From positions 4,223,501 to 4,287,500 of the forward strand of contig NZ_CP150667.1 of NCBI RefSeq assembly GCF_038024065.1: a stretch of DNA of 64,000 bases. Direction: 5' to 3'. The position numbers and the translations under genes are program-made. Positions 778 to 33,609 of the stretch are shown piece by piece (position 1 is the stretch's first letter; every line of letters begins with the position of its first letter). This stretch comes from Polaribacter sejongensis. Its GTDB lineage: Bacteria; Bacteroidota; Bacteroidia; Flavobacteriales; Flavobacteriaceae. The notes below the pieces were generated by a model. The model ran no database searches. It saw nothing but the letters and a program-made list of their open reading frames with translations, and was not told where the DNA came from.

Positions 778-902
778 AACGTGTTTGTGTATGATTAGTT
801 GCGTGGTTAAGCAACTAATTTAGCAAATAAATCACAGATAGAATATTCCGCAGGAATGTTCGTAAGGCGGCAGTGACCTAGCAATTAATTATACACGGTG
901 TT
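778..902 (-). repeat. attC-like site 1
   Basis: Starts AACGTGTTTGTGTAT and ends ATACACGGTGTT, with inner hairpin ATATTCCGCAGGAATGT. It is the 3' site of the 1539-1769/885-1532 cassette. The stop codon of the 215-residue gene (885) lies inside it. Confidence 0.85.
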
Positions 903-1532
903 ACCCAACGTTTTTATTCTTTTAATTAGATTTTCATATTCGTTTAAATAAAGTTCGTTTTCCTTGAGTAAAACTTTATTTTCAATCCAAGGAAAAATCC
1001 ATTCTTTATTTTTATCAGATGCTCTACCAAAAAAGCAATATTTTCCATCTGCTTGAATATTTTTTTTAAGTGATTCCCAATTATTGTGAGTTTTATTAAT
1101 TCTGTCTTTAAATCGCAAACAGACAAGTAAATAATCCAATTCAGGAAAGTATTGTTTGAATTTTCGATATTCAGTTTCTATTTTTCCTCCTTTAGAAATC
1201 ATTTTAGGGTTTCCCCATTTTTTCAATTCAATTACTCCTAAAACCTGTTCTCTTTCGACAATACTGACGTAAGGATTTATACTTTTAATAAATTCAGTTT
1301 GTTGAGTTGTGTTTTTCGCTATTATTATATCAAATTGTGAAGAAAAATTTCTTCCCTCTCTTATTTGTCCTTTGAAAAAGCAAAATTCAGGTAAATCTTC
1401 TCTTAAAAACTTTATTAGAATATCTTCGTAAAGTGAGCCATTTATTCCTTTATGCCTTAAACCCTCGTGATAAACTCTTTCTGAAAATTCAACAATTTCT
1501 AATTGTCTTAAATTATATTTTTTTTCAAACAT
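885..1532 (-). CDS. DUF6602-like putative nuclease
   Basis: 215-residue soluble protein. The segment from about residue 30 (G..YEDILIKFLREDLPEFCFFKGQI) through FDIIIAKN (about 68-75) to VLGVIELKKW (about 97-106) resembles DUF6602 proteins and has the spacing of a PD-(D/E)xK nuclease core: Asp in FDIII, then ExK in IELKK. It is the second gene of a two-gene cassette, 6 bp downstream of the 76-residue gene. The last codons (NTVYN) lie inside attC-like site 1, as often happens with integron cassettes. Possible role: nuclease effector or defence gene. Nuclease activity is inferred from motif spacing only. Confidence 0.5.
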   Translation of the reverse strand: MFEKKYNLRQLEIVEFSERVYHEGLRHKGINGSLYEDILIKFLREDLPEFCFFKGQIREGRNFSSQFDIIIAKNTTQQTEFIKSINPYVSIVEREQVLGVIELKKWGNPKMISKGGKIETEYRKFKQYFPELDYLLVCLRFKDRINKTHNNWESLKKNIQADGKYCFFGRASDKNKEWIFPWIENKVLLKENELYLNEYENLIKRIKTLGNTVYN

Positions 1533-1538
1533 CTTCTT

Positions 1539-1769
1539 TTATTCAAAAGACGCTGGGTCGAATTGTATTCCAGTTTCATTATTTTCCAAAAGCCAACCTC
1601 GTGCATCTAATTCGTTAATTACTTCACTCAAACTCTCTTTTTTTGCGTTTGAGTCAACTTTAATAATATAATTCCATAAGTCAGTTTTCTTTAATTGAGA
1701 ATTACCATTTTGTGATTGATTTTTGGCATATTCCATTACTTTTTCAAGAAGTTCATTTGGTCCGAGCAT
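1539..1769 (-). CDS. Small hypothetical protein, first gene of cassette
   Basis: 76 residues, beginning MLGPNELLEKVMEYAK; no membrane segment or signal. The pattern LKKTDLWNYIIKVDSNAKKESLSEVINELDARGWLL could be a small winged-helix fold. It lies 6 bp upstream of the putative nuclease gene in the same cassette and direction, so the two are probably co-translated and may be functional partners. I do not recognise the family. Confidence 0.6.
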   Translation of the reverse strand: MLGPNELLEKVMEYAKNQSQNGNSQLKKTDLWNYIIKVDSNAKKESLSEVINELDARGWLLENNETGIQFDPASFE

Positions 1770-1836
1770 ATTCTATTTTTTTAAAATTCAAAAGTTTGAT
1801 TTTTCTACTAAAGTTCGTTTTTAGTAAATGTTGGGT

Positions 1837-1963
1837 AACGTTGTTGTGTTATGGAAAGTTGCGTTTAAAGTGAACGGCTATTTTCCGCAGGAAAATTGAT
1901 GTTCACAAAAAAGCAACTACTTTTGGTTAGGATAAAAATAAGCAATTTTTTATACACGGTGTT
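1837..1963 (-). repeat. attC-like site 2
   Basis: Starts AACGTTGTTGTGTTATGG and ends ATACACGGTGTT, with inner hairpin ATTTTCCGCAGGAAAAT. The cassette to the left closes CGTTGGGTAAC, the exact complement of its own opening GTTACCCAACG at 900. It belongs to non-coding cassette 1837-2638. Confidence 0.9.
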
Positions 1964-2638
1964 GGGCGTAGGTTATTTTATTTATCGATTTTTCTAAATT
2001 AAATCCCTAATTTACATTTAGAACATTTTTCGTTTCCTTAAAACTCTAAATTTTTCAACTTTTTCTAATTTGTCTTAAACCTTGAAATTTTAGTTCTCAC
2101 AAAGTTTGGTTGCGTTCAATTTTTCGTTTTCTTAAAACTCTAAATTTTTCAACTTTTTCTAAATTGTCTTAAATCTTGAAATTTTAGTTCTCACAAAGTT
2201 TGGCTGCGTTCAGTTTTTCGTTTTCTTAAAAACTCTAAATTTTTCAACTTTTTCTAAATTGTCTTAAATCTTGAAATTTTTGTTCTCACAAAGTTTGGTT
2301 GCGTTCAATTTTTCGTTTTCTTAAAAACTCTAAATTTTTCAACTTTTTCTAAATTGTCTTAAATCTTGAAATTTTTGTTCTCACAAAGTTTGGTTGCGTT
2401 CAATTTTTCGTTTTCTTAAAACTCTAAATTTTTCAGTTTTTTCTAAATTGTCTTAAATCTTGAAATTTTTGTTCTCACAAAGTTTGGCTGCGTTCAATTT
2501 TTCGTTTTCTTGAAACTCTAAATTTTTCAGTTTTTCTAAATTGTGTAAAAATTAAATATTTTCCTTTTTTTTTGTTTAATTTGTCTTTAAAATAACAGAT
2601 TTTTATAGCTTATCTGAGTTTCCTTTTAACTTACGCCC
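1964..2638. repeat. Non-coding cassette with ~94-bp tandem repeats (copy 1)
   Basis: No credible gene on either strand. The core (about 2026-2540) holds about six tandem units of 93-95 bp. Each unit runs CGTTTTCTTAAAACTC, AAATTTTTC, TTGTCTTAAA, CTTGAAATTTT, CTCACAAAGTTTGG. Unit starts at 2126, 2219, 2314, 2409 and 2503 give periods of 93, 95, 95 and 94. The cassette opens GTTGGGCGTA and closes TTACGCCCAAC. The unit length is not a multiple of three, which argues against a repetitive protein. Confidence 0.85.
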
Positions 2639-2765
2639 AACGTTGTTGTGTTATGGAAAGTTGCGTTTAAAGTGAACGGCTATTTTCCGCAGGAAAATTG
2701 ATGTTCACAAAAAAGCAACTACTTTTGATTAGGATAAAAATAAGCAATTTTTTATACACGGTGTT
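2639..2765 (-). repeat. attC-like site 3
   Basis: Same subtype as site 2 and almost identical to it (inner hairpin ATTTTCCGCAGGAAAAT). It is the site of non-coding cassette 2639-3452. Confidence 0.9.
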
Positions 2766-3452
2766 GGGCGTAGGTTATTTTATTAATCGATTTTTTAAAT
2801 TAAATTCCTAATTATTTTAATTTTCAATTTACATTCAGAACATTTTTCGTTTTCTTAAAACTCGAAATTTTTCAGTTTTTTCTAAATTGTCTTAAACCTT
2901 GAAATTTTAGTTCTCTCAAAGTTTGGCTGCATTCAATTTTTTGTTTTCTTAAAACTCGAAATTTTTCAGTTTTTTCTAAATTGTCTTAAACTTCTAAATT
3001 TTTGTTCTCCCAAAGTTTGGCTGCGTTCAATTTTTCGTTTTTTAAAACTCTAAATTTTTCAGTTTTTTCTAAATTGTCTTAAACTTCTAAATTTTTGTTC
3101 TCTCAAAGTTTGGCTGCTTTCAATTTTTCGTTTTTTAAAGCTCTAAATTTTTCAGTTTTTTCTAAATTGTCTTAAACTTCTAAATTTTTGTTCTCTCAAA
3201 GTTTGGCAACGTTCAATTTTTTGTTTTCTTAAAACTCTAGATTTTTCAACTTTTTTCTAAATTGTCTTAAATCTTGAAATTTTAGTTTTCACAAAGTTTG
3301 GCTGCGTTCAGTTTTTCGTTTTCTTGAAACTCGAAATTTTTCAGTTTTTCTAAATTGACTTAAAATTCAATATTTCACTTTTTTTTTGGTTAATTTGTCT
3401 TTAAAATAACAAATTTTTATAGCTTATCTGAGTTTACTTTTAACTTACGCCC
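2766..3452. repeat. Non-coding cassette with ~94-bp tandem repeats (copy 2)
   Basis: Diverged relative of the cassette at 1964-2638, with about six degenerate units and the same opening GTTGGGCGTA and closing TTACGCCCAAC. Two such cassettes sit next to each other here. No gene seen. Confidence 0.85.
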
Positions 3453-3577
3453 AACGTTGTTTTGTATGGAAAGTTGCGTTTTAAGTCGACGGCTATTTTC
3501 CGTAGGAAAATAGGAGTTGACAAAAATGCAACAACCTTTGATTAAGCCAAATTTAGCAATTTTTTATACAAGGTGTT
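3453..3577 (-). repeat. attC-like site 4
   Basis: Variant starting AACGTTGTTTTGTATGG and ending ATACAAGGTGTT, with hairpin CTATTTTCCGTAGGAAAATAG. The L-box changes (TTGTAT against ATACAA) are compensatory, so pairing is kept. Identical to site 30 (30568-30692). Confidence 0.9.
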
Positions 3578-4109: not shown

Positions 4110-4235
4110 AACGTTGTTGTGTATGGTTAGTTGCGTGTTTTAAGCGACTAATTTACTAAATAAAACACGAACCAAGAAAGTCCGTTTGGACTTTCGTAAA
4201 TTGGCTAAAACCAGCAATTAATTATACACGGTGTT
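4110..4235 (-). repeat. attC-like site 5
   Basis: Starts AACGTTGTTGTGTATGG and ends ATACACGGTGTT, with hairpin GAAAGTCCGTTTGGACTTTC. It contains the stop of the 221-residue gene (4218). Identical to sites 11 and 31. Confidence 0.9.
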
Positions 4236-4920: not shown

Positions 4921-5045
4921 AACGTTGTTGTATAAGCTTTGTTGCGTGGTTTCAGCAGTGAATTTACTAAATAAAACACGAACGGCGAAATTCCGGAGGA
5001 ATTTCCCAAGTGAGCTAAAACCAGCAATAAAGTTTATACGGTGTT
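4921..5045 (-). repeat. attC-like site 6
   Basis: Subtype TATAAGCTTTGTTGCG with hairpin GAAATTCCGGAGGAATTTC. Site of the DUF4240 lipoprotein cassette; identical to site 19. Confidence 0.9.
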
Positions 5046-5768: not shown

Positions 5769-5893
5769 AACGTTGTTGTATAAGCTTTGTTGCGTTGATT
5801 AAGCAGTGAATTTACTAAATAAAACACGAACGGCGAAATTCCGAAGGAATTTCCCAAGTGAGCTAAAACCAGCAATAAAGTTTATACGGTGTT
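5769..5893 (-). repeat. attC-like site 7
   Basis: Subtype TATAAGCTTTGTTGCG with hairpin GAAATTCCGAAGGAATTTC and GTTGATTAAGC arm. Same sequence as site 32, where it borders a different downstream cassette. This shows that the site travels with the 184-residue gene on its 3' side. Confidence 0.9.
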
Positions 5894-6588: not shown

Positions 6589-6713
6589 AACGTTGTTGTG
6601 TATGGTTTGTTGCGTGGTTAAGTAGTAAACTTAGCAATTAAAACACGAACCACGAAAGTCTGAAAGGACTTTCGTAAATAGGCGATTACCAGCAATAAAT
6701 TATACACGGTGTT
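6589..6713 (-). repeat. attC-like site 8
   Basis: Starts AACGTTGTTGTGTATGG and ends ATACACGGTGTT, with hairpin GAAAGTCTGAAAGGACTTTC. Site of the helicase-nuclease cassette. Confidence 0.9.
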
Positions 6714-6724: not shown

Positions 6725-9250
6725 TTAGCTCGTTTTCTTATAATATTTTTCAGAATATTCCTTTAATAAACTATCAATATTTAATTTATGAGCATTAATA
6801 AATTCTTGAATTTTTTCATCAGACAATGAATCAATCTCATACTTATTAAATTCTTTAAAAAAACCTTTTATATTGTTTCTAAGGTTTCTCAATTTTCCCC
6901 TTTTCATTATTTCAACGTTATGAGTAAAATCAGCGTGATAAGAAACATTCTTGGTTGGTATTATTAATATTCGTTTAACAGGTGAATCATTATACTGATT
7001 TTGAAACCATCCACAATGAGTATTCATTTGTCCTATTTCGTGCTTATTTACTTCTTGTCTTTCAATTTTTACCTCACTTTTACACTCAAATATAAAATAT
7101 TGATTTCCAACACCACACCACAAATTGTCAGGTCCTTTTTTGAACTCTTTGTCGGGTCTTTCACTTAGAAAACCGAGCATTAAACCTAATTCTTTTAAAG
7201 CTCGTTCAAATTTTTCAGCTGTTGTTCCAAACTCTAAATCTGATAATACTCCTTCTACAGATAACATTAATTCTTCAAAATCAGTGTGATTTTTTATCCA
7301 ATCTACAATTCGTTTAGTTCTATTTTCATTGACATATTCTAATTTTTTATAAGTTATTCCTTCACTTGGTTTAAGTAATTCATTGTTTTTTAGAAATGCA
7401 CTCTTTTGTAGTTCGTTAGAAACCGTTTTACTTTGTAAAAACTTGTATCGAGCCATTATTTGAAGATACCAACCTTTCTCACTATTATCAATGCAGTGTT
7501 TGTCAATTATTTGTTGAATTAAACTACTTGCTTTTTCGTAATTTCCTGTGTAGTTCAGAACTGCTGCTTTTCTTTCAAGTGTTAAAACATCATATATTTT
7601 GCTCAAATCATTATTGGGTTGAATTTTGTTCATTTCTTCTTTGTAAAATTGTTTCCAACCTTCGTCTCTTTGTAAACTTTGTTTCATAAGCGACTTGACA
7701 ACATCAAAAGGCTCATTGTCATCTGAAACTTCATCAGATGCCATTTGAGCTATTTCCATACCTATTTCAATTTGTTTTTTAGTTTGTGGTGAAAAATATT
7801 TAATTGTTCTTGAACTTTTAATAAATTTCACTAAATCAGCACCAATAATAAGTATTAGACAATAGTCTTTTTCTCCTCGTACACTTCTTCCCAAACCTTG
7901 TTCAATTTTCTGAGCTATTTTAATGTTAATTGAGTCACTATTCATCCTATTAGATTCTTCATATCTATCAGATAGAGAATAGAAAAATGGTCTACCGTCT
8001 AAAACTAAAATTCTACAAGTTTCATCTGGTAAGTCTATTCCGTCATATCTATTTGCGAAAACGACAGTTTGTCTAAATTTAGACTTTTTTAGATGGTCAA
8101 CAGCTGCTGAAATTTCGTTTGATTTTGGTACAATTGACTTTAGGTTTTCATATGTTTTAGACTTAGAGAAAGAGGAAACAAGAGAAACTACCCCATAATT
8201 CTTATCGGATGGTTTTGCAAGAGTGTTAACCATTTTGTCTCTATCTAAACTGTCATCAACTAAAGAAGGAATAATTAACATCTTTTCACCAGACCATATT
8301 TGACTTGGATTTTCCAAAGGGTTTTTAATAGCCTTAGAATTAAATCCAAGACCTTTAATGAAAAATGAGTCGTCTTGAGTAGTTGCTGACATCAAGATTC
8401 TTTGGTTGGCTTTATCAAAAGACGAGAATTTTTCGATTGGTATATGTATCGGTGTGATTTCAATATTTTGACCAGAAATAAAAGCTTGACAATTTTTGAT
8501 ACTATCTTTTATAAAGGGCCACGAAAACATTATTGATAATTCTTCGCGGTAATTAGATAGTATTTTAAGAACTTCTTCTGATTTGTCAATCCAATTCCAA
8601 TAAGGTATTGGTAAGAATGAATTATAATCTCCATTCTCTATTTCTAAAAATGTTCCTTCTCCTTGTTCAGGTAAAGCGTCACTAAAAAGTTCTAATAGTT
8701 CTTTGTATGCAGAATGGTCACTATTTAAGCTAATTGTAAATGTATTTTTTATTGAGTCAATACAAGCGTGAGAATCATCCAGTATTACATTTTCAACAGG
8801 AATGAAGTCATTACCTAAACCAAAAATTGTCTTACCGTTAAAAACTTTCTGAACGTGTGTTATTAATATTTTTTCCCCATCCACAAATTCATTTGGTAAA
8901 GAATTGTCATCTCCAATTGTGCAATAACTAATACCAAATTTTTTTGCATCTCTTCTTACTTGTTGTACAAGATAAATATTTGGACAAATAAATAAACAAG
9001 GACCTTCTCCAGAATTGATTTTAGATTGAAGAATTAAAAGCCCTATCAAGGTTTTGCCTTCTCCAGTATGCAATTTTATAATTAAATCTTTTTCATTTTT
9101 ACGGGATTCGAACCATTCAGAAAGTATTTTCTGTTGAGCTGGTCTCAAAGGACCTGCAACACTTCTTCTGTCTAATGAGTCATATATCTCGATTGGATTT
9201 GTTTTCTTTTCAATTTCAGATTTACTGAGTCTTTTTCTAAAGTCTACCAT
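6725..9250 (-). CDS. DEAD/DEAH-type helicase fused to a PD-(D/E)xK-like domain
   Basis: 841 residues, by far the largest gene in the array. LRPAQQKILSEW (Q-motif region) precedes Walker A HTGEGKT (about 61-67), Walker B ILDDSHA (about 155-161) and SAT motif ILMSATTQDD; motif VI is QGLGRSVRGE (about 450). A C-terminal domain around residues 700-725 carries DNLW then FIFECKSEV, the spacing of a PD-(D/E)xK nuclease. Helicase-nuclease fusions of this kind are common in phage and plasmid defence. The cassette opens GTTGGGCACA and closes TTGTGCCCAAC. Helicase assignment is firm; nuclease and defence roles are inferred. Confidence 0.8.
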   Translation of the reverse strand: MVDFRKRLSKSEIEKKTNPIEIYDSLDRRSVAGPLRPAQQKILSEWFESRKNEKDLIIKLHTGEGKTLIGLLILQSKINSGEGPCLFICPNIYLVQQVRRDAKKFGISYCTIGDDNSLPNEFVDGEKILITHVQKVFNGKTIFGLGNDFIPVENVILDDSHACIDSIKNTFTISLNSDHSAYKELLELFSDALPEQGEGTFLEIENGDYNSFLPIPYWNWIDKSEEVLKILSNYREELSIMFSWPFIKDSIKNCQAFISGQNIEITPIHIPIEKFSSFDKANQRILMSATTQDDSFFIKGLGFNSKAIKNPLENPSQIWSGEKMLIIPSLVDDSLDRDKMVNTLAKPSDKNYGVVSLVSSFSKSKTYENLKSIVPKSNEISAAVDHLKKSKFRQTVVFANRYDGIDLPDETCRILVLDGRPFFYSLSDRYEESNRMNSDSINIKIAQKIEQGLGRSVRGEKDYCLILIIGADLVKFIKSSRTIKYFSPQTKKQIEIGMEIAQMASDEVSDDNEPFDVVKSLMKQSLQRDEGWKQFYKEEMNKIQPNNDLSKIYDVLTLERKAAVLNYTGNYEKASSLIQQIIDKHCIDNSEKGWYLQIMARYKFLQSKTVSNELQKSAFLKNNELLKPSEGITYKKLEYVNENRTKRIVDWIKNHTDFEELMLSVEGVLSDLEFGTTAEKFERALKELGLMLGFLSERPDKEFKKGPDNLWCGVGNQYFIFECKSEVKIERQEVNKHEIGQMNTHCGWFQNQYNDSPVKRILIIPTKNVSYHADFTHNVEIMKRGKLRNLRNNIKGFFKEFNKYEIDSLSDEKIQEFINAHKLNIDSLLKEYSEKYYKKTS

Positions 9251-9269: not shown

Positions 9270-9395
9270 AACGTTGTTGTGTATTGAAAGTTGCGTTTTT
9301 AATGAGCGGCTATTTTCCGAAGGAAAATTGAAGTGAATAAAAATGCAACTGATTTTGGTAAGGCACTAATTTAGCAATTTTTAATACACGGTGTT
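9270..9395 (-). repeat. attC-like site 9
   Basis: Starts AACGTTGTTGTGTATTG, with hairpin ATTTTCCGAAGGAAAAT. Identical to site 26. Site of the two-smORF cassette. Confidence 0.9.
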
Positions 9396-9949: not shown

Positions 9950-10075
9950 AACGTTGTTGTATATGGTTTGTTGCGTGTTTCAAGCACCTAATTTAGTAAA
10001 TAATTACCGACCAAGAAAGTCCGCGAGGACTTTCGTAAGTAGGCGAGAAGCCAGCAATAAATTATATACGGTGTT
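9950..10075 (-). repeat. attC-like site 10
   Basis: Starts AACGTTGTTGTATATGG and ends ATATACGGTGTT (compensatory L-box pair), with hairpin GAAAGTCCGCGAGGACTTTC. Site of the MORN-repeat cassette, and nearly the same sequence as the IS-interrupted site 14. Confidence 0.9.
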
Positions 10076-11109: not shown

Positions 11110-11235
11110 AACGTTGTTGTGTATGGTTAGTTGCGTGTTTTAAGCGACTAATTTACTAAATAAAACACGAACCAAGAAAGTCCGTTTGGACTTTCGTAAA
11201 TTGGCTAAAACCAGCAATTAATTATACACGGTGTT
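11110..11235 (-). repeat. attC-like site 11
   Basis: Identical to sites 5 and 31; belongs to the second copy of the 221-residue membrane-protein cassette. Confidence 0.9.
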
Positions 11236-11920: not shown

Positions 11921-12046
11921 AACGTTGTTGTGTAATGAAAGTTGCGATTTTTGTGAACGGCTATTTTCCGCAGGAAAATTGTTGTTTGCAAAAATGCAAC
12001 TGCTTTTAGTTAAGCACTAATTTAGCAATTTTTAATACACGGTGTT
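11921..12046 (-). repeat. attC-like site 12
   Basis: Starts AACGTTGTTGTGTAATG, with hairpin ATTTTCCGCAGGAAAAT. Site of gene-free cassette 11921-12448; very close to site 27. Confidence 0.85.
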
Positions 12047-12448: not shown

Positions 12449-12573
12449 AACGTTGTTGTATAAGCTTTGTTGCGTTGTTTAAGCAGTGAATTTAGTAAAT
12501 AAAACACGAACGGCGAAATTCCGGAGGAATTTCCCAAGTGAGCCAAAACCAGAAATAAAGTTTATACGGTGTT
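12449..12573 (-). repeat. attC-like site 13
   Basis: Subtype TATAAGCTTTGTTGCG with hairpin GAAATTCCGGAGGAATTTC. Site of the PH-SHOCT cassette. Confidence 0.9.
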
Positions 12574-13086: not shown

Positions 13087-13262
13087 ATTTTTTTTCTTTC
13101 TTTCTTTTTCAATTTTATATTTCCTTCTTTTCTCGATTTCAACTTATGTTGCCTAACGTTGTTGTATATGGTTTGTTGCGTGTTTCAAGCACCTAATTTA
13201 GTAAATAATTACCAACCAAGAAAGTAGACTGCACCCAAAAGCTTAGACAAATTTATAATTAA

Positions 13263-14042
13263 TTATTGATAATAAAGAGCTCTATATTCTACTGGGCTCA
13301 TTCCATTTAAATTTAGTTTAATTCTTTCTGTATTATAATATTTTATATACTCTTTAATTTCTTTTTTCAATTGAATAATCGATATGTATTTGTTTAAATA
13401 AAATAATTCAGATTTTAAGATACCAAAGAAATTTTCAATTATTGCATTGTCTAGACAGTTTCCTTTTCTAGACATACTTTGTGTAATTCCTTTTTCTTTT
13501 AATAACCGTTGATATTGTTTCATTTGATATTGCCAACCTTGATCTGAATGTAATATAATGTTTGCTTGGTTAGGAACCTTCTTAAAAGACTTTTTTAGCA
13601 TCTTAACCACTTGTTCGAAGTTAGGTCTTTCAGATAATTCATAACTAACTATTTCGCCATTGTATAAATCAATTATTGGTGATAAATATAATTTATTTCC
13701 AAAGACTTTAAATTCGGTAATATCAGTTGCCCATTTTGTATTAGGTTTGGTTGTTTTAAAATTACGTTGAAATATATTGGGTGCTATTTCACCTATCTGT
13801 CCTTTGTAAGATTTATATTTTTTAATTCTTATCAAACTTTTTAAACCTAATTTTCGCATTAATCTTAAAATTGTTTTATGATTTATAACAAGTCCTCTTT
13901 TGTTTATTTCTAAGGTGATTCTTCTATAACCATATCTTCCTTTATGATAATGATATATCTCTTTAATTAAGATTTTTACCTCTTCATATTTATCTGTTAA
14001 TTGACTTCTTTTTTTGTGATAATAATAACTGCTTCTTGCCAT
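13263..14042 (-). CDS. IS3-family transposase OrfB (DDE integrase core)
   Basis: 259 residues from this ATG. It starts MARSSYYYHKKRSQLTDKYE, followed by an HTH_21 segment (GRYGYRRITLEINKRGLVINH) and an rve integrase core: DITEF (first Asp), LHSDQGWQY (second Asp) and SMSRKGNCLDNAIIENFFGILKSEL (catalytic Glu). The open frame extends upstream without a stop (ELRHKYSLELLLNHTNMARS), so the normal product is probably an OrfAB fusion by -1 frameshifting at the AGCAAAAAGC run at the end of orfA. Confidence 0.9.
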   Translation of the reverse strand: MARSSYYYHKKRSQLTDKYEEVKILIKEIYHYHKGRYGYRRITLEINKRGLVINHKTILRLMRKLGLKSLIRIKKYKSYKGQIGEIAPNIFQRNFKTTKPNTKWATDITEFKVFGNKLYLSPIIDLYNGEIVSYELSERPNFEQVVKMLKKSFKKVPNQANIILHSDQGWQYQMKQYQRLLKEKGITQSMSRKGNCLDNAIIENFFGILKSELFYLNKYISIIQLKKEIKEYIKYYNTERIKLNLNGMSPVEYRALYYQ

Positions 14043-14098
14043 ATTGGTATGATTTAGTAATAATTCTAAACTATACTTATGCCTTAATTCTGTTATGG

Positions 14099-14614
14099 CT
14101 AGCGCTTTTTGCTTTGCGCTGCTAGAACTAAGGCTTGTAACTTTTTTAGCAAATCCAGCTCAGCTCTTAACGATTCATTTTCCAATAGAAGTTCATCTTC
14201 CCTTGTTAAAGGTTTATTAGACTTCTTTTTTGCTCTCTTAAATTCCATAGATCTAGGTCTTCCTCTTGGTTTATTATTTAAGCCTGTAATTCCTAGTTTT
14301 TTATAATTCCTTTGCCAATTCATTATTGCAGATTTGGTTGGAATATTAAACTTTAAACAAGCTTGACTTAAAGATAATGAATCATCTACAATAGATTCTA
14401 AAACTTTCAATTTAAATTTTAAGCTATATTCTTGATTTTCTCTAGGTAATAAACCTTTTTTACCATGCTTTTCATAAAAACTAACCCAGCTATGAAGAGA
14501 TGTGTGATGAATACCGTTCAATAACGAAACAGTGGAAACTGCTTGATTTTTTTTTAATACTTGTTCTACACAACGTAGTTTAAAATCGTAACTATACTTG
14601 ACTTTTCTTCCCAT
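14099..14614 (-). CDS. IS3-family transposase OrfA (helix-turn-helix)
   Basis: 171 residues. Two helix-turn-helix units (about 5-50: YSYDFKLRCVEQVLKKNQAV; about 60-105: YSLKFKLKVLESIVDDSLSL) are followed by a basic linker and a C-terminal leucine-zipper-like helix (EDELLLENESLRAELDLLKK). It binds the IS ends and supplies the N-terminal part of the OrfAB transposase. It ends AAQSKKR with a slippery AAAAAG just before the stop. Confidence 0.88.
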   Translation of the reverse strand: MGRKVKYSYDFKLRCVEQVLKKNQAVSTVSLLNGIHHTSLHSWVSFYEKHGKKGLLPRENQEYSLKFKLKVLESIVDDSLSLSQACLKFNIPTKSAIMNWQRNYKKLGITGLNNKPRGRPRSMEFKRAKKKSNKPLTREDELLLENESLRAELDLLKKLQALVLAAQSKKR

Positions 14615-14728
14615 AAAAATACCCTCAAATAGTGTCTAACTTTTTGGGGGCAGTGTAAAAGTCCGCGAGGACTTTCGTAAGTACGCAAGAAGCCAGCAAT
14701 AAATTATATACGGTGTTGGGTGCAGTTT

Positions 14729-18574: not shown

Positions 18575-18700
18575 AACGTTGTTGTGTATTGAAAGTTGCG
18601 TTTAAAGTGAACGGCTATTTTCCGCAGGAAAATTGATGTTCACAAAAAAGCAACTACTTTTGGTTAGGATAAAAATAAGCAATTTTTTATACACGGTGTT
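18575..18700 (-). repeat. attC-like site 17
   Basis: Starts AACGTTGTTGTGTATTG, with hairpin ATTTTCCGCAGGAAAAT. Identical to site 33; site of repeat cassette 18575-19292. Confidence 0.9.
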
Positions 18701-19417: not shown

Positions 19418-20143
19418 GGCAGTAGTAATTATTTCTTTCAATTCATTATTTGACTCCTCAAGAAAATCTTTTATTAATTCGATTAATTCAAGAGTGCTTT
19501 TTCTTAATAAAGCTATTTCTTCTTTGATTTGTTCGTCCGTATTTTCTTTAAGAATTTCATCAGTTTCAATTCCAATAATTGCATTAATATCTTCCCATAT
19601 TACAACTCCATTAAAACCTTTAATATCAGCTTCTCCAGTATGTAGTTTTTTATGTCTTTCTGTTTTTAATTCACTAAGTTTTTCTGTTATTTTTTCTGCA
19701 ATTTCAGAAATTTTTTCATAACCTTCTTTTTTTGCTTTGTCTTTAAAAGTATAAGCAGAAACCTTTTCTAATTTTAGGTCTAAATTATAGATTATTGTAC
19801 CTAATTTTCCTAGTAAGTCTAAAATTGTAATTATTCTTATAAAATAATTTTCGTAATGGTATTTAAAATAAGTTTCTTGAGAGTCTAAAAAAGGATAGTT
19901 TTTTAAAATATCAGTACGTTCTTTTTCTAAAAAATTAAATGTTAAATCTATATCTCTCAATACATTATTTATGTTGCTGTACAGTTTTAGTATTTGTTTT
20001 ATTTTAACTTCATTTTCAGTTCCATAATCTTTGTAATTTAAATCAGTATTTTTTAGACATTCTTTCATATGTCTTGGGACAAATGTTAACAAAGCTTTTG
20101 CTAATTCAAATTGAAATTGAGTTCCTGATAAATGTTCTTCCAT
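19403..20143 (-). CDS. Putative HEPN-domain protein
   Basis: 246-residue all-helical soluble protein. RHKKLHTGEADI near residue 165-176 gives an R-x4-H motif, and YFIRIITILDLLGKLGTIIYNL fits the helical core of HEPN/Cthe_2314-like proteins. The last residues (ANTVY) are encoded inside attC-like site 18. Opening GTTGGCAGTAG, closing ACTGCCAAC. Possible RNase toxin or defence effector; family call is tentative. Confidence 0.5.
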   Translation of the reverse strand: MEEHLSGTQFQFELAKALLTFVPRHMKECLKNTDLNYKDYGTENEVKIKQILKLYSNINNVLRDIDLTFNFLEKERTDILKNYPFLDSQETYFKYHYENYFIRIITILDLLGKLGTIIYNLDLKLEKVSAYTFKDKAKKEGYEKISEIAEKITEKLSELKTERHKKLHTGEADIKGFNGVVIWEDINAIIGIETDEILKENTDEQIKEEIALLRKSTLELIELIKDFLEESNNELKEIITTANTVY

Positions 20144-20166: not shown

Positions 20167-20291
20167 AACGTTGTTGTATAAGCTTTGTTGCGTGGTTTCA
20201 GCAGTGAATTTACTAAATAAAACACGAACGGCGAAATTCCGGAGGAATTTCCCAAGTGAGCTAAAACCAGCAATAAAGTTTATACGGTGTT
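20167..20291 (-). repeat. attC-like site 19
   Basis: Identical to site 6; belongs to the second copy of the DUF4240 cassette. Confidence 0.9.
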
Positions 20292-21014: not shown

Positions 21015-21139
21015 AACGTGTTTTTGTATTGAAAGTTGCGTTTTAAGTCGACGGCTATTTTCCGCAGGAAAATAGGAGTTGACAAAAATGCAACAACCTT
21101 TGATTAAGCCAAATTTAGCAATTTTTTATACAAGGTGTT
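21015..21139 (-). repeat. attC-like site 20
   Basis: Variant starting AACGTGTTTTTGTATTG and ending ATACAAGGTGTT, with hairpin CTATTTTCCGCAGGAAAATAG. Site of gene-free cassette 21015-21600. Confidence 0.85.
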
Positions 21140-21600: not shown

Positions 21601-21725
21601 AACGTTGTTGTATAAGCTTTGTTGCGTTGTTTAAGCAGTGAATTTAGTAAATAAAGTACGAACGGCGAAATTCCGGAGGAATTTCCCAAGTGAGCCAAAA
21701 CCAGCAATAAAGTTTATACGGTGTT
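21601..21725 (-). repeat. attC-like site 21
   Basis: Subtype TATAAGCTTTGTTGCG with hairpin GAAATTCCGGAGGAATTTC. Site of the Mrr-like nuclease cassette. Confidence 0.9.
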
Positions 21726-21737: not shown

Positions 21738-23318
21738 TTATCTTCCATAATATTTATAAGACCTCCTAAATCCACTTTCAGTTGCTTCCTTTATGTTCTT
21801 TGCAAGAAAACCTTGTCCTTTCTTTATTTTTGTTCTATCATAATGCTGGTCAAAAGGTAAATGATATATTTTAGTTTCAATGCCTTCTGAGTCAATTCCA
21901 ATATTGCATTTAATTCTTGGAAATTCTTTCATTTCCCATTTTTCAATTCTTACTCCCAAAATTTTAGCAAATTTCATTGCAGTTTCTGAAAGAGAAGTAT
22001 TAGTTATAAAAACAGGTGTGACAACTTTAAATAAATCAGGATTCATTAAAGTATCAATTATCGTTGTTCCATATAATTGTAAAATATGTTTTTCGTGTAT
22101 TGTCTTTGTTTTTTTCCAAAGCTTGCATTGTATAATTTCTACATCATTTCCTTTTCTCGCAATTAAATCACGTCCAAGGTCATTTAACCTTTTTTCCATT
22201 CCAAAATACTCAACTTCCCAACCTCTTTCTTCATATGTTATTCCGCAAGACATTTCATAATCTCTACCAATTTGCCAATTCGTTTTTTTTCCTTTTAAAT
22301 ATCTATCTAATGCTAATTGATTTCTATAATCTTCGTCGTAATCAAAATATTCTTCTTTAGAGAGATAATTCTGTACATTATCAAAATCCTCTTTAAATTC
22401 CTTTATTGAATTTACATCGTCAAGTTGCTTTAAAGTATCAAAATCGTCTACATAATTTGTAAGTTCTGGGAAAATATTTAAAAGATATTCATATTTGTAT
22501 AACATTTGGCGGTATTGCTCAATATGAAATTTACTTTGAGTTTTTAATTCTTTAATTCTTTTACTTTCAGATATTGCTGGTCTTTTTTTATTTTCTAAAC
22601 GTCTCGCTATTAAATCATATTCTAAAAGTAAAAAATCAGAATACATAGATGTTATTTTAGTTACCGAGTTTTCACTTTTACTTTCAATTGATAAGTATAA
22701 ATCGTGTTGTTCTTTTAGAGTGTTTTTCAAATCATCTCTTTCTCTTACAATACTTATTAATTTTTGATTTTTCTCAATATATTTTGTCTCTGAATTGATT
22801 AAGTCTGTCTCTAACTTATCTTTAATTAAAACTTGTTCATTTAAAATATCTATTTTTTTTAAAGCATCAATTAACTTTTGATTTTCTTCAATATATTTTG
22901 TTTCGAAATCTCTTAAGTCGCTTTTTAGCTCGAGATTAATTCTAACTTGTTCTTTTAGTTTTAATTCGGTTTCATTTTTTTCGATTTCGCAATCATTAAG
23001 TTCATTTCGAGAATTTTCTGAATATTTTATTGTCTTATCAAATTCTTTATTTTTAATGTTAATTCTTGATATTAAGTTTTGAAGAGTTATATTTTTGTGG
23101 GCAATCTCAGATGAAAATCTATTTGTTTTAAGTTTTTCATTCTCGTAATTCTCTTTATGTTTTTTGGATACTAATTTTTCGTTAGAAAGTTCTTTTAAAA
23201 TTTTCGGGTATTCTTTTACTTTTTTCTTGTTTTCTTTCCTTGTTTCTATAAAAGTAGTAGTGAAATTCCAAATTATTCCAATTATAATTAAACTTCCAAT
23301 AAAATATATTATTTCCAT
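21738..23318 (-). CDS. Membrane-anchored coiled-coil protein with Mrr-like nuclease domain
   Basis: 526 residues. One N-terminal membrane helix (IIYFIGSLIIIGIIWNFTTTF) and a long coiled coil (about 28-230, rich in K/E/N/L heptads) precede a C-terminal restriction-endonuclease-like domain. That domain has RDYEMSCGITYEERGWEV, LGRDLIARKGNDVEIIQCKLW (Asp then QxK, the Mrr/PD-(D/E)xK core, about 390-410) and a following THP-like strand VTPVFITNTSLS. Such proteins are suspected DNA-cleaving defence nucleases held at the membrane. Opening GTTGTGGCAC, closing GTGCCACAAC. Nuclease family firm; target unknown. Confidence 0.78.
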   Translation of the reverse strand: MEIIYFIGSLIIIGIIWNFTTTFIETRKENKKKVKEYPKILKELSNEKLVSKKHKENYENEKLKTNRFSSEIAHKNITLQNLISRINIKNKEFDKTIKYSENSRNELNDCEIEKNETELKLKEQVRINLELKSDLRDFETKYIEENQKLIDALKKIDILNEQVLIKDKLETDLINSETKYIEKNQKLISIVRERDDLKNTLKEQHDLYLSIESKSENSVTKITSMYSDFLLLEYDLIARRLENKKRPAISESKRIKELKTQSKFHIEQYRQMLYKYEYLLNIFPELTNYVDDFDTLKQLDDVNSIKEFKEDFDNVQNYLSKEEYFDYDEDYRNQLALDRYLKGKKTNWQIGRDYEMSCGITYEERGWEVEYFGMEKRLNDLGRDLIARKGNDVEIIQCKLWKKTKTIHEKHILQLYGTTIIDTLMNPDLFKVVTPVFITNTSLSETAMKFAKILGVRIEKWEMKEFPRIKCNIGIDSEGIETKIYHLPFDQHYDRTKIKKGQGFLAKNIKEATESGFRRSYKYYGR

Positions 23319-23368: not shown

Positions 23369-23495
23369 AACGTTGTTGTGTTATGGAAAGTTGCGTTTAA
23401 AGTGAACGGCTATTTTCCGCAGGAAAATTGTTGTTCACAAAAAAGCAACTACTTTTGATTAGGATAAAAATAAGCAATTTTTTATACACGGTGTT
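23369..23495 (-). repeat. attC-like site 22
   Basis: Starts AACGTTGTTGTGTTATGG, with hairpin ATTTTCCGCAGGAAAAT. Site of repeat cassette 23369-24183. Confidence 0.9.
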
Positions 23496-24183
23496 GGGCG
23501 TAGGTTATTTTATTAATCGATTTTTTAAATTAAATTCCTAATTATTTTAATTTTCAATTTACATTCAGAACATTTTTCGTTTTCTTAAAACTCGAAATTT
23601 TTCAGTTTTTTCTAAATTGTCTTAAATCTTGAAATTTTAGTTCTCTCAAAGTTTGGTTGCATTCAATTTTTTGTTTTCTTAAAACTCGAAATTTTTCAGT
23701 TTTTTCTAAATTGTCTTAAACTTCTAAATTTTTGTTCTCTCAAAGTTTGGCTGCGTTCAGTTTTTCGTTTTCTTAAAACTCTAAATTTTTCAGTTTTTTC
23801 TAAATTGTCTTAAATCTTGAAATTTTAGTTCTCACAAAGTTTGTCTGCGTTCAATTTTTCGTTTTCTTAAAACTCTAAATTTTTCAGTTTTTTCTAAATT
23901 GTCTTAAATCTTGAAATTTTAGTTCTCACAAAGTTTGTCTGCGTTCAATTTTTCGTTTTCTTAAAACTCTAAATTTTTCAGTTTTTTCTAAATTGTCTTA
24001 AATCTTGAAATTTTAGTTCTCACAAAGTTTGGCTACGTTCAATTTTTCGTTTTCTTGAAACTCTAAGTTTTTCAGTTTTTCTAAATTGACTTAAAATTCA
24101 ATATTTTACTTTTTTTTTGGTTAATTTGTCTTTAAAATAACGAGTTTTTATAGCTTATCTAAGTTTACTTTTAACTTACGCCC
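23496..24183. repeat. Non-coding cassette with ~94-bp tandem repeats (copy 4)
   Basis: About six units. The middle units (about 23,780-24,040) are almost identical to each other, which points to recent unit duplication. Opens GTTGGGCGTA, closes TTACGCCCAAC. No gene seen on either strand. Confidence 0.85.
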
Positions 24184-24306
24184 AACGTGTTTGTATATGG
24201 TTTGTTGCGTGATTAAGCAACTAAGTTAACAAATAAAAACGGAATAGAAAATCCGCGAGGATTTTCGTAAGTAGGCTAGAACTAGCAATAAATTATATAC
24301 GGTGTT
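24184..24306 (-). repeat. attC-like site 23
   Basis: Starts AACGTGTTTGTATATGG and ends ATATACGGTGTT, with hairpin AAAATCCGCGAGGATTTT. Site of the one cassette whose genes run on the plus strand. Confidence 0.88.
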
Positions 24307-25082: not shown

Positions 25083-25205
25083 AACGTGTTTGTATATGGT
25101 TTGTTGCGTGATTAAGTACGTAATTTAGCAAATAAAAACCGAATAGAAAATCCGCGAGGATTTTCGTAAATAGGCTAGAACTAGCAATAAATTATATACG
25201 GTGTT
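25083..25205 (-). repeat. attC-like site 24
   Basis: Same subtype as site 23 (hairpin AAAATCCGCGAGGATTTT). It overlaps the stop codon (25204) of the immunity-like gene. Site of cassette 25083-26034. Confidence 0.88.
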
Positions 25206-25605
25206 AGCAACTGGCTTTTATCCTTTCCGAAATTCGTTCATATTCTTTTTCTCCGAGTTCCGATATAATTTTCTCTTTATTAGACTCAAAGGTATTCTTG
25301 AAATTCAGAAATTCAGTTGAGTTTTTATTCCAAAATTCAGCTGGCACTTTTGAAACAGAATCTAATAAATCTCCCTCATACAAATCTCCTTCGACAATTA
25401 TATTCTGTTCAAGTTTTTCTAATGCTATTCCAATTAAAAATTCAATTCCGATTTTTTGTGAAATCAAAAGTCGAATTTGCTCAATTGTTAATTCTGAAAC
25501 TTTTATTTTTCTGTATTCAAAACACCTTTTAACCAAGTTAGTTGGAAATTCAGATGGTTCTTTCCAATAGTCATTTTCTAATTGTTCGATTGATTTTGAT
25601 TGCAT
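25204..25605 (-). CDS. CDI-immunity-like protein (CdiI_2 type), paralogue
   Basis: 133 residues beginning MQSKSIEQLENDYWKEPSEF, with AELT-like SELTIEQIRLLISQKIG, IALEKLEQN and the acidic DLYEGDLL. It is clearly homologous to the protein at 362-754 but diverged, so the two may protect against different toxin variants. Second gene of a two-gene cassette, starting 1 bp after the upstream gene. No CDI toxin gene is present. Confidence 0.68.
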   Translation of the reverse strand: MQSKSIEQLENDYWKEPSEFPTNLVKRCFEYRKIKVSELTIEQIRLLISQKIGIEFLIGIALEKLEQNIIVEGDLYEGDLLDSVSKVPAEFWNKNSTEFLNFKNTFESNKEKIISELGEKEYERISERIKASC

Positions 25606-26034: not shown

Positions 26035-26160
26035 AACGTTGTTTTGTATGGAAAGTTGCGTTTTAAGTCGACGGCTATTTTCCGCAGGAAAATAGAAGTT
26101 GACAGAAAAGCAACAAACTTTACTTAGGCACTAATTTAGCGATTTTTTATACAAGGTGTT
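26035..26160 (-). repeat. attC-like site 25
   Basis: Variant starting AACGTTGTTTTGTATGG and ending ATACAAGGTGTT, with hairpin CTATTTTCCGCAGGAAAATAG. Site of gene-free cassette 26035-26689. Confidence 0.88.
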
Positions 26161-26689: not shown

Positions 26690-26815
26690 AACGTTGTTGT
26701 GTATTGAAAGTTGCGTTTTTAATGAGCGGCTATTTTCCGAAGGAAAATTGAAGTGAATAAAAATGCAACTGATTTTGGTAAGGCACTAATTTAGCAATTT
26801 TTAATACACGGTGTT
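26690..26815 (-). repeat. attC-like site 26
   Basis: Identical to site 9; belongs to the second copy of the two-smORF cassette (26690-27369, 680 bp). Confidence 0.9.
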
Positions 26816-27369: not shown

Positions 27370-27495
27370 AACGTTGTTGTGTAATGAAAGTTGCGATTTT
27401 TGTGAACGGCTATTTTCCGCAGGAAAATTGTTGTTTGCAAAAATGCAACTGCTTTTAGTAAAGCACTAATTTAGCAATTTTTTTTACACGGTGTT
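27370..27495 (-). repeat. attC-like site 27
   Basis: Starts AACGTTGTTGTGTAATG, with hairpin ATTTTCCGCAGGAAAAT; nearly identical to site 12. The outer 3' arm reads TTTTTACACGGTGTT, one base weaker than usual. Site of the DUF4062 cassette. Confidence 0.85.
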
Positions 27496-28591: not shown

Positions 28592-28717
28592 AACGTTGTT
28601 GTGTATGATTTGTTGCGTGTTTTAAGCAGTGAATTTACTAAATAAAACACGAACAAAGAAAGTCCCAAAGGACTTTCGTAAATTGGCTAAAACCAGCAAT
28701 AAATTATACACGGTGTT
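28592..28717 (-). repeat. attC-like site 28
   Basis: Starts AACGTTGTTGTGTATGA and ends ATACACGGTGTT, with hairpin GAAAGTCCCAAAGGACTTTC. Site of the two-gene DUF4145/HEPN cassette. Confidence 0.9.
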
Positions 28718-28730: not shown

Positions 28731-29357
28731 TTATTTTCCGTCTCGTTTATTTATTCCATCTATTTTTCCTGTTGGTAGAGTAGAATAAATTCCGCTAACT
28801 TTTTTAGGTAATGCAATCATATATTCGACAATCACATTAATTAAATCAAAAAGTTGTCCAACCGTTTTGTGGTCATCAGTATCAATTTGCCCTGGATGTA
28901 CAGCATCATTTCCAGTTACTCTAACTATATCCAGTGATTGTTGTACAATATCTGGTAGTCCTTTTTTTACTAAACTTCCAATATCACTATTAATATTTTT
29001 TCCTTCTTCCCCGAGTTCTTTGCACAAAACTTGAATTCCAAGTCTTAATAATGCAGAAGCTCCTCGAGGTGACTTATTACTTATTGAAGAAGCTTCTAAA
29101 TATATTTTTTTAACATTTTCAGGCATTTCAGGATTTGGAAATGGTGAATTTCCTGTGTCTGGATAATGCATTTTTCCTTGAACCCAAATTGATGTTTCTC
29201 TACAATGCTGGCAGGTTGAAGAACCAAGTATGTTGTGGTTACGGTTTCCGTTATTTTCAAATCTCATTCCTCTATTTACCCACTCTTGCTTTGCTAAAAC
29301 TCCGCAACTTGGACAAGTAAACGATTCTTTATTCAATTGAGGTTGTATGTGTTTCAT
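28731..29357 (-). CDS. DUF4145 domain protein with N-terminal zinc motif
   Basis: 208 residues. CPSCG...CQHC near the N-terminus (about 19-57) looks like a zinc-binding pair. Residues about 80-190 form a DUF4145 (HEPN-clan) domain: ASSISNKSPRGASALLRLGIQVLC, GKNINSDIGSLVKKGLP, VRVTGNDAVHPGQ and LFDLINVIVEYMI. DUF4145 proteins occur next to restriction and defence genes. The start overlaps the stop of the upstream gene by 4 bp (ATGA), so the pair is translationally coupled. Confidence 0.82.
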   Translation of the reverse strand: MKHIQPQLNKESFTCPSCGVLAKQEWVNRGMRFENNGNRNHNILGSSTCQHCRETSIWVQGKMHYPDTGNSPFPNPEMPENVKKIYLEASSISNKSPRGASALLRLGIQVLCKELGEEGKNINSDIGSLVKKGLPDIVQQSLDIVRVTGNDAVHPGQIDTDDHKTVGQLFDLINVIVEYMIALPKKVSGIYSTLPTGKIDGINKRDGK

Positions 29358-29915: not shown

Positions 29916-30040
29916 AACGTTGTTTTGTATGGAAAGTTGCGTTTTAAGTCGACGGCTATTTTCCGCAGGAAAATAGAAGTTGACAGAAATGCAACAACCT
30001 TTGATTAAGCCAAATTTAGCAATTTTTTATACAAGGTGTT
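29916..30040 (-). repeat. attC-like site 29
   Basis: Variant starting AACGTTGTTTTGTATGG and ending ATACAAGGTGTT, with hairpin CTATTTTCCGCAGGAAAATAG. Site of gene-free cassette 29916-30567. Confidence 0.88.
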
Positions 30041-30567: not shown

Positions 30568-30692
30568 AACGTTGTTTTGTATGGAAAGTTGCGTTTTAAG
30601 TCGACGGCTATTTTCCGTAGGAAAATAGGAGTTGACAAAAATGCAACAACCTTTGATTAAGCCAAATTTAGCAATTTTTTATACAAGGTGTT
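30568..30692 (-). repeat. attC-like site 30
   Basis: Identical to site 4; left edge of the block that matches 3453-4920 at a constant offset of 27,115 bp. Confidence 0.9.
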
Positions 30693-31224: not shown

Positions 31225-31350
31225 AACGTTGTTGTGTATGGTTAGTTGCGTGTTTTAAGCGACTAATTTACTAAATAAAACACGAACCAAGAAAGTCCGT
31301 TTGGACTTTCGTAAATTGGCTAAAACCAGCAATTAATTATACACGGTGTT
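31225..31350 (-). repeat. attC-like site 31
   Basis: Identical to sites 5 and 11; third copy of the 221-residue membrane-protein cassette. Confidence 0.9.
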
Positions 31351-31998: not shown

Positions 31999-32035
31999 TT
32001 CTTAATCTCTGTTCGATTTTTTTTTAATTGTGTAC

Positions 32036-32160
32036 AACGTTGTTGTATAAGCTTTGTTGCGTTGATTAAGCAGTGAATTTACTAAATAAAACACGAACGG
32101 CGAAATTCCGAAGGAATTTCCCAAGTGAGCTAAAACCAGCAATAAAGTTTATACGGTGTT
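32036..32160 (-). repeat. attC-like site 32
   Basis: Same as site 7 although the cassette on its left is different (TGTGTAC-AAC instead of GGTGGT-AAC). The change of flank falls exactly at the AAC that starts the site, so this position marks the recombination boundary. Confidence 0.92.
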
Positions 32161-32238
32161 GTGGTGTCGTTTTTTATTTTTCCCTTCAATTCTTTATATA
32201 TTATTCAGCTTTTTTGTTTTCCTAAATAGATTTTTTTG

Positions 32239-32793
32239 TCAGCTAATTTTATATATTGTTTCGGTTTGTTTCTTTTTCCAATTTTTGAAATTCATTTTTA
32301 CAATTACTTCTTGAATTCCGTGTATTTTTTCTTTAAAATCAAGTTTCAATTCGTAACAAATTCCGTATTTTTCTAATACTTCTTCTATATTATTTTTCTT
32401 ATGTCTTGCAGTTCCAAATTCCCCCTTAAATGCTCTTAGTTTAAAGCAAGCAACTATTATGTTTGAAACTCCGACACTAATTAGTCCAACTTTGTAATAC
32501 CAAAAGTAAATAGGACTGAGCATCATTTTAGCAAAAGCACTACTTTTATAAATTAATAAAAATCCAACTATTATTAAAAAGAAAAAAGAAAATAGAATTG
32601 TGTTTTTCTTTTTTTTTATTGTTTCGAGTTCCAAATTAGCAATTTCTAATTTTTTCACAAATTTATTATCAAGTTTAATTTCTGGACAAGTATTCTTAAA
32701 TTCAGGCTTTTTGTTAGTTAATTTACAAGTCAATCCTTTCTCAAGAGATGTTATTTCATTTTCACATAAATCACAATGTTTTGAGAAATTCAT
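32239..32793 (-). CDS. Zinc-ribbon membrane protein (copy 2 of 2)
   Basis: Protein identical to 5972-6526: N-terminal CxxC-type zinc ribbon, two TM segments, charged tail. It is the protein-coding cassette nearest the recombinase. Confidence 0.7.
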   Translation of the reverse strand: MNFSKHCDLCENEITSLEKGLTCKLTNKKPEFKNTCPEIKLDNKFVKKLEIANLELETIKKKKNTILFSFFFLIIVGFLLIYKSSAFAKMMLSPIYFWYYKVGLISVGVSNIIVACFKLRAFKGEFGTARHKKNNIEEVLEKYGICYELKLDFKEKIHGIQEVIVKMNFKNWKKKQTETIYKIS

Positions 32794-32855
32794 TTAGTTT
32801 TTAATTTTCGAGTGATTAATTCAGGTTTCTTGGATTCAATGTTGTAATGCACCAC

Positions 32856-32981
32856 AACGTTGTTGTGTATTGAAAGTTGCGTTTAAAGTGAACGGCTATT
32901 TTCCGCAGGAAAATTGATGTTCACAAAAAAGCAACTACTTTTGGTTAGGATAAAAATAAGCAATTTTTTATACACGGTGTT
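32856..32981 (-). repeat. attC-like site 33
   Basis: Identical to site 17; 3' site of the last cassette before the recombinase. Confidence 0.9.
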
Positions 32982-33573
32982 GGGCGTAGGTTATTTTATT
33001 TATCGATTTTTTTAAATTAAATTCCTAATTATTTTAATTTTCAATTTACATTCAGAACATTTTCGTTTTCTTAAAACTCTAAATTTTTCAGTTTTTCTAA
33101 ATTGTATTAAACCTTGAAATTTTAGTTCTCACAAAGTTTGACTGCGTTCAGTTTTTCATTTTCTTAAAACTCTAGATTTTTCAATTTTTTCTAAATTGTC
33201 TTAAATCTTGAAATTTTGGTTCTCTCAAAGTTTGGCAACGTTCAATTTTTTGTTTTCTTAAAACTCTAGATTTTTCAGTTTTTTCAAAATTGTCTTAAAT
33301 ATTGAAATTTTAGTTTTTCAAAGTTTGGCTACATTCAATTTTTTGTTTTCTTAAAACTCTAAATTTTTCAGTTTTTTCAAAATTGTCTTAAATCTTGAAA
33401 TTTTAGTTTTTACAAAGTTTGGTTGCGTTCAATTTTTCGTTTTCTTGAAACTCTAAATTTTTCAGTTTTTCTAAATTATCTTAAAATTCAATATTTCACT
33501 TTTTTTATGGTTATTTTGTCTTTAAAATAACGAATTTTTATAGCTTATCTGAGTTTCCTTTTAACTTACGCCC
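32982..33573. repeat. Non-coding cassette with ~94-bp tandem repeats (copy 5, recombinase-proximal)
   Basis: Exact-length copy of the 718-bp cassette at 18575-19292. It occupies the first position next to the recombinase, where the newest insertions are expected in an integron. It closes CGCCCAAC at 33569-33576, followed directly by non-attC sequence CGGTTATATGC. Confidence 0.87.
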
Positions 33574-33609
33574 AACCGGTTATATGCAAACAAATATATT
33601 GTTTTTTAG
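33574..33609 (-). other. Candidate attI-like primary site at the array/recombinase junction
   Basis: The final cassette boundary AAC is followed not by an attC but by CGGTTATATGCAAACAAAT, with no partner GGTGTT end. Read on the minus strand the junction is GCATATAACCG|GTTGGGCG, so the GTT of the first cassette is joined to a unique sequence. It lies 33 bp from the recombinase stop codon, as an integration (attI-like) site would. Confidence 0.6.
33591..33598 (-). promoter_or_regulatory. Possible cassette promoter -7 box inside the attI-like site
   Basis: On the minus strand this is TATATTTG, a perfect fit to the Bacteroidetes TAnnTTTG box. It points into the array and would start transcription about at the cassette junction. 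No good TTTG lies 19-20 bp upstream, so support is partial. If real it would be the equivalent of the integron Pc promoter. Confidence 0.3.

Follow-up and report, generated by a model that had tools for sequence, protein, structure and literature searches.

A chromosomal array of attC-like cassette sites beside a non-IntI tyrosine recombinase in Polaribacter sejongensis, and its recurrence in Bacteroidota

We analysed a 64,000-nucleotide stretch of Polaribacter sejongensis DNA (contig NZ_CP150667.1, positions 4,223,501 to 4,287,500; hereafter the window), whose left half holds an array of short gene cassettes, each bordered by a site resembling the attC recombination sites of integrons, next to a gene for a tyrosine recombinase. 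The window part of the array, delimited by pattern search and covariance model, occupies positions 778–33575 on the minus strand. Along that strand come the recombinase gene (34767–33610, 385 amino acids), a 34-bp attI-like stretch and then the cassettes, with their genes directed away from the recombinase. In window 1–33609, the minus strand holds 25 of the 26 non-overlapping open reading frames (ORFs) of at least 120 amino acids. Because the recombinase, the cassette sense and most ORFs share this strand, each site forms the 3′ terminus of the cassette on its right-hand side. The whole array comprises 78 sites over 83.5 kb, all 78 in the same orientation, and extends about 50–50.5 kb to the left of the window, up to C1:4172992. 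A preliminary description had placed an integron-like array here with its left limit at position 778. The array is indeed present; the limit is not there, and the strand is corrected to minus.

The 33 attC-like sites of the window (778–32981; 32 intact, one split by an insertion sequence, IS) were found both by pattern search (32 paired sites, and one with halves 1.55 kb apart, at 13155 and 14705) and with a covariance model made from the sites gathered in this analysis, model R1 (33 matches at E ≤ 2.1e-5, the next match being at E = 2). The earlier count of 33 is thereby upheld, the split site being a single site interrupted by an IS3-like element. All on the minus strand, the intact sites matched by the model lie at 778–902, 1837–1963, 2639–2765, 3453–3577, 4110–4235, 4921–5045, 5769–5893, 6589–6713, 9270–9395, 9950–10075, 11110–11235, 11921–12046, 12449–12573, 15815–15939, 17425–17549, 18575–18700, 19293–19417, 20167–20291, 21015–21139, 21601–21725, 23369–23495, 24184–24306, 25083–25205, 26035–26160, 26690–26815, 27370–27495, 28592–28717, 29916–30040, 30568–30692, 31225–31350, 32036–32160 and 32856–32981; the split site, seen by both methods, spans 13155–14717.

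The outer boxes (GTGTAT/ATACAC and variants) and the inner boxes of these sites pair, as the preliminary description had noticed, and their covariation lies far beyond that of shuffles and slid controls. Among 61 diverse sites, chosen by fuzzy patterns for each arm separately, a choice that does not impose covariation, a 19-pair arm structure shows standard pairs in 98.0% of 1158 cells, with 144 two-sided changes against 45 in shuffles (0/500), while slid structures fall to 32–52% paired. In 89 matches from 19 further sources, which gave no sites to the covariance model, 98.0% of 1632 cells pair and two-sided changes reach 323 against 80 shuffled, in an alignment that leans to the model because it was fitted to it. 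Some sites show a bulge next to their inner box. The R box reads GTTR in 72/72 cases and conforms in 17/72 to GTTRRRY, the integron R box consensus being RYYYAAC/GTTRRRY.

When each site was folded, a check that the preliminary description had proposed, the bottom strand was the more stable in 78/78 (57/57 distinct sites; six are IS-split fragments), and in 71/71 cassette circles built in silico. Conserved G-T pairs point to the same strand. At position 11 of the cassette ends, 65 of 71 cassettes have a bottom-strand G-T and none has the opposite arrangement; stem pair 23/120, outside the selection pattern, is G-T in 59/61 sites, and stem pair 16/125, inside that pattern, in 53/61. These pairs add stability to the bottom strand alone, which is antisense to the cassette genes. 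Together, fold energies and G-T asymmetry favour the bottom strand as the candidate folded substrate.

Such repeats might instead be structured RNAs, terminators or elements similar to miniature inverted-repeat transposable elements, the array having arisen by duplication. Hairpins can terminate transcription, and cassettes are duplicated here, some as neighbour pairs. However, no Rfam family matched window 1–36000 at gathering score, the G-T pairs point to the antisense rather than the sense strand of the cassette genes, and the complementarity between the two ends of each cassette, described below, would have no role in an RNA. Copies with different neighbours are moreover found in all ten clusters of duplicated cassettes. 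We regard this explanation as highly improbable.

The ends of the cassettes identify them as units. In the window, the six positions after GTT are the exact complement of the six before AAC in 31 of 32 cassettes, compared with 32 of 992 mismatched pairings, in agreement with the GTT-N6 ... N6-AAC ends reported at the outset. Over the whole array the figures are 68/77 and 188/5852, six of the nine misses arising because IS-split sites had their boundary wrongly placed. In contrast, the two flanks of a single site match at 6/6 positions in only 1 of 32 sites and at 0–4 in the others, which fits an R′ half forming part of the next cassette. Whole cassettes, together with their 3′-end sites, also recur as near-identical copies in ten clusters. 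In every cluster the copies follow two or more different upstream neighbours and agree from G^TT onward. The cassette at the attI-like stretch (c1) and another lying behind a different site (c17) are nearly identical in everything past G^TT. The recurring unit is TT...ORF...site...G, in different contexts and with its break at G^TT. One 811-bp cassette has five copies at 100% identity in its own genome; in other genomes of the genus, the matches listed cover its site part only. A model-free test for chains of complementary ends is weak, since shuffled sequence reaches chains of up to 3, and chains of 2–3 were therefore left out of the evidence. The window gives a chain of 12, and chains of at least 4 lie downstream in L049, L050, L055, L060 and L086. 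Among ten arrays tested in this way, four reached at least 4 (11, 11, 7 and 4) and six stayed at 1–2, as shuffles do, with sites found by the covariance model in 10/10.

Between the recombinase stop and the first cassette, the 34-bp stretch at 33576–33609 (minus strand), recognised by geometry and sequence, ends ATATAACCGG^TT. The first cassette begins 27–42 bp past the recombinase stop in 11 of 30 loci, with TATAAC-N2-G^TT in 10 of those 11; of the remaining loci, 15 have their first complementary pair at 63–418 bp, some perhaps by chance, and four have none. By its sequence and position, this stretch would qualify as an attI beside the integrase gene.

The array-associated recombinase, assigned from its domains and catalytic residues, has an N-terminal domain (residues 1–90), a SAM-like core-binding domain and a catalytic domain with R223, K248, H312, R315, H338 and Y347. 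In 45 array recombinases, the R, K, H, R and H are kept in 45/45 and the Y in 44 (one gap). The spacing from K to H is 64 residues in the window protein and 64–69 in the 45, against 106–107 in 19 IntI, which bears out the full catalytic set and the missing IntI insertion between K248 and H312 that had been read from the sequence. The IntI profile TIGR02249 scores 205.6 on the recombinase, in two pieces, for a cut-off of 265, and no protein in this genome exceeds that cut-off. This rules out a hidden IntI at the far end of the array (C1:4172992) and leaves standing the non-IntI driver of the preliminary description, which had named an IntI flanking the array from the left as one finding that would contradict it. 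The nearest NCBIfam model, NF040815 ('site-specific tyrosine recombinase/integron integrase', XerA-type), gives 219.8 for a cut-off of 220; several relatives carry this name in databases, and the closest organism-named ones are Polaribacter proteins at 84% identity.

In a quick tree of the kind originally suggested, IntI proteins form one clade (support 100) and XerC/D-type proteins another (support 99); the window recombinase falls outside the first and apart from the second. A single 69-row clade takes in the array recombinases; its support is 82% in the Shimodaira–Hasegawa-like approximate likelihood ratio test. In an approximately unbiased (AU) test, a single clade of array recombinases plus IntI was not rejected (p = 0.598). 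Of the 'independently evolved or strongly diverged' system first proposed, the lineage distinct from IntI therefore stands, while an independent origin is not established.

The tree also bears on host XerC and XerD as movers of the cassettes, in the manner of dif modules. Two Xer-type genes are present (L151, L152), and plasmid systems of dif modules (pdif) are known. Those are likewise small exchangeable modules served by a tyrosine recombinase, but they carry 28-bp dif-like duplex sites and rely on host XerC/D with no dedicated recombinase, whereas here structured sites of about 125 nt accompany a recombinase of a separate lineage at the head of the array. Since the Xer-type proteins fall in their own clade, host XerC/D was rejected as the array recombinase, and we give this possibility very little credence.

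The N-terminal 90 residues are HARP-like in some relatives, PF07443 being matched by 4 of 21 copies (best 5.1e-7), and in some relatives the domain occurs in tandem, in two or more copies; the same search gave no match for the domain of the window recombinase itself. Seven recombinases divergent from their arrays were fetched and lack the domain, while nine codirectional ones fetched alongside have it. One locus, L065, is an exception to this split, being divergent yet with the domain.

Several observations concern recombinases more broadly. In one relative (genome G001), which has two intact recombinase copies, locus L018 is a third, stop-ridden one. Plasmids, those of Acinetobacter among them, also encode recombinases with about 45% identity in the catalytic part, one of them annotated TnpF. 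The window has a second, ordinary arm-domain integrase (Arm-DNA-bind_5, SAM_5) at 40774–41976 on the plus strand. A gene with helix-turn-helix (HTH) and S24 peptidase domains (LexA/CI-like; 35368–36141, plus strand) lies near the array recombinase and is directed away from it; as a regulator of SOS type it was set aside, being found solely in the window copy among 51 loci, for many of which 1.5 kb of upstream sequence was covered.

The same recombinase lineage recurs beside the same type of site. A recombinase at E ≤ 1e-60 is present in 16 of 39 genomes (own included). In 12 of the 16 adjoining stretches, one or more paired sites are oriented like the recombinase, and the model adds a 13th (L033). 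The model matched 17 of 80 named loci at E ≤ 0.021. In 15 of these, all matches are downstream and codirectional; L065 has its matches upstream, in divergent arrangement, and L080 has a marginal match at the cut-off, also upstream. Several of the other 63 loci are ordinary Xer or IntI loci, or offer only a short downstream stretch. Larger samples were drawn from the class (295 genomes) and the phylum (296 genomes, five of them shared); at most 11 candidate sites were scored per genome, so that site tallies are lower bounds, and overlaps between genome lists were counted by eye from listings before Fisher tests. In the class, 150 genomes have the recombinase and at least 60 have sites; 48 of these 60 also have the recombinase (p = 2.7e-7). 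In the phylum, sites occur in at least 59 genomes and the recombinase in 38 of these 59 (89/296 overall; p = 8e-10), while IntI over the cut-off is found in 18 of the 59 (84/296 overall; p = 0.75).

On class-sample contigs with both a listed site and a recombinase, picked by eye and leaving out G000, 22 listed sites from 14 genomes are no more than 25 kb away from a recombinase, and all 22 follow it downstream in the same direction. Of the 139 listed sites of the phylum sample (again without G000), 46, from 18 genomes, have a recombinase at a distance of up to 35 kb, and all 46 are array-oriented: 29 are codirectional-downstream (11 genomes), 17 divergent-upstream (7 genomes), and none falls in the other two arrangements. 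This count used the higher-scoring recombinase rows, leaving out the lower-scoring ones, which come from genomes without a typed site row. None of the 139 sites is near an IntI, for 21 IntI rows from site-bearing genomes; a sub-cut-off row in G124 was left out, being the array recombinase itself. As a separate observation, sites of only about 59 nt occur beside the same recombinase type in Rufibacter (L060).

These counts weigh on the view that the array is a classical integron that has lost its IntI, that is, a cluster of attC sites lacking an integron integrase (CALIN), and that the recombinase next to it is an island integrase without any connection to the array. The GTT/AAC core and the fold are common to the present sites and attC, and arrays without IntI are common in bacteria according to the text available of PMC9024848. 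However, one recombinase lineage is found at the head of arrays, in fixed orientation, across many genomes; no IntI lies near any of the 139 listed sites, despite an IntI over the cut-off in 84 of 296 genomes; and GTTRRRY boxes are a minority. We consider this view very unlikely, if slightly less so than the two set aside above.

The locus is very probably a sedentary chromosomal integron-like cassette system run by a different lineage of tyrosine recombinase, as judged from sequence. An integron-type array with a non-IntI recombinase, as first described, is strongly supported, since many genomes pair this lineage with such sites. We conclude that the system is integron-like, recurs in Bacteroidota and has an integrase lineage of its own; recombination is what we infer for it.

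Several results weigh against this interpretation. Loci L014 and L031, about 43% identical, show no array, nor does L038 (Mesonia), and 24 rows of the 69-row clade are without a known array. Conversely, 12 of the 60 site-bearing genomes of the class and 21 of the 59 of the phylum have no recombinase over thresholds, and 93 of the 139 listed sites are more than 35 kb from any typed recombinase or on another contig. Cassette neighbours in some cases recur together (c3-c4 and c29-c30), indicating that block duplication also contributes. Finally, the consulted part of PMC8138268 calls the IntI insertion 'not fully conserved' in an integron-like subgroup, so that insertion-less IntI relatives had been noticed already.

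In the mechanism that we propose, a cassette would be excised between two sites, and its complementary ends would pair in the circle as a 10-bp R box; since the R box forms in the circle, the circle is favoured as the folding-competent form. The recombinase would bind the folded single bottom strand of the cassette's site, and exchange at G^TT would insert the circular cassette into attI or into another site. Something else would have to take over the role of IntI's patch III insertion; in the codirectional subtype, this may be the N-terminal domain. This domain cannot be the whole answer, because the seven divergent recombinases examined are also without it.

A broader reading, which we consider somewhat better than even, is that of a second integron lineage throughout Bacteroidota, with two integrase architectures: a long codirectional one with the N-terminal domain and a short divergent one. 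Folded single-stranded sites would be recombined without the IntI insertion by a sister line that split from IntI before the insertion was gained, or by parallel invention. The strand would be chosen through conserved G-T pairs in place of extrahelical bases, which are a feature of integron attC sites, and phages would move cassettes between hosts.

In common with integrons, the system has an imperfect inverted-repeat site with paired boxes, complementary R″ and R′ with G^TT, an attI-like stretch and a single orientation; IntI family membership, the insertion near patch III and GTTRRRY R boxes are absent. The system closely resembles sedentary IntI integrons such as the Vibrio superintegron, which also have tandem cassettes, a folded 3′-end site, a G^TT junction, a tyrosine recombinase gene with attI next to it and defence-type cargo, as well as the bottom-strand folding that is predicted here. 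In contrast to them, the recombinase here is not IntI and is without the roughly 40-residue insertion, the R box is GTTR-N6, conserved G-T pairs mark the strand, and recombinase and array run in one direction in the subtype to which the window belongs. Reverse-orientation integrons of the Spirochaetota type likewise have recombinase and cassettes on one strand, but theirs are IntI proteins, at least in the available text of PMC9668308. XerA-type proteins (NF040815) are the closest named family by score and have no IntI insertion; unlike XerA, which performs chromosome dimer resolution (PMC8138268, same part as above), the array lineage is associated with cassette arrays and bears an additional N-terminal domain.

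No description of this array and recombinase was found in a search of full-text literature by title and start of abstract, subscription papers and preprints lying outside its coverage. As far as the accessible sections go, PMC8618304 lists Bacteroidota among phyla with integrons, while PMC9024848 speaks of In0 only in Bacteroidetes and later of one complete integron (Salinibacter ruber), its survey of complete genomes reporting very few in the phylum; in a Tenacibaculum, an excerpt of PMC10013915 reports no integron with IntegronFinder 2. The present arrays would thus open a cassette pool, including defence-type genes, in such a phylum. The literature ties single-strand hairpin recombination in integrons to the IntI-specific insertion, a domain called necessary in PMC9668308 (partial text); a recurrent lineage that appears to manage such recombination without it would make this requirement directly testable and offer a view onto the origin of integrons from Xer-like enzymes.

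Among minus-strand cassette genes assigned by domain or PADLOC matches are a helicase matching PADLOC PDC-S28, a candidate defence system (6725–9250), a DUF4145 protein matching the anti-phage PADLOC PD-T7-4 (28731–29357), proteins with an Mrr_cat restriction endonuclease domain (21738–23318), a HEPN domain (19403–20143) and a PIN domain (14729–15796), and a CdiI_3 immunity family protein (25204–25605; a second at 362–814). Cassettes also occur in phages. The lytic Polaribacter phage P12002L (L155, 14503–15197) carries one complete cassette, with its site at 14503–14624, the 10-bp complementary end about 560 bp to the right and G-T at position 11. Its sibling P12002S matches it over the whole cassette stretch, so that there is no empty site for comparison. 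P12002L carries predicted attC sites elsewhere, one of them active with IntI1 as reported in the available portion of PMC9892861. In IMG/VR stretches chosen by arm pattern, the model matched 33 of 34, 20 with two or more matches; some are near-duplicates.

Tandem repeats of 93–95 bp are found in cassettes without a sizeable ORF (2026–3423, 18777–19357, 23479–24248 and 33058–33544). An IS3-family element of about 1.43 kb lies in the top hairpin, at the identical position, of six attC-like sites with six different end boxes: the split site of the window (element at about 13226–14656) and five to the left, starting at about −40223, −32001, −22981, −20203 and −8755 in window coordinates. This identical position suggests hairpin-directed insertion or the spread of one IS-bearing site.

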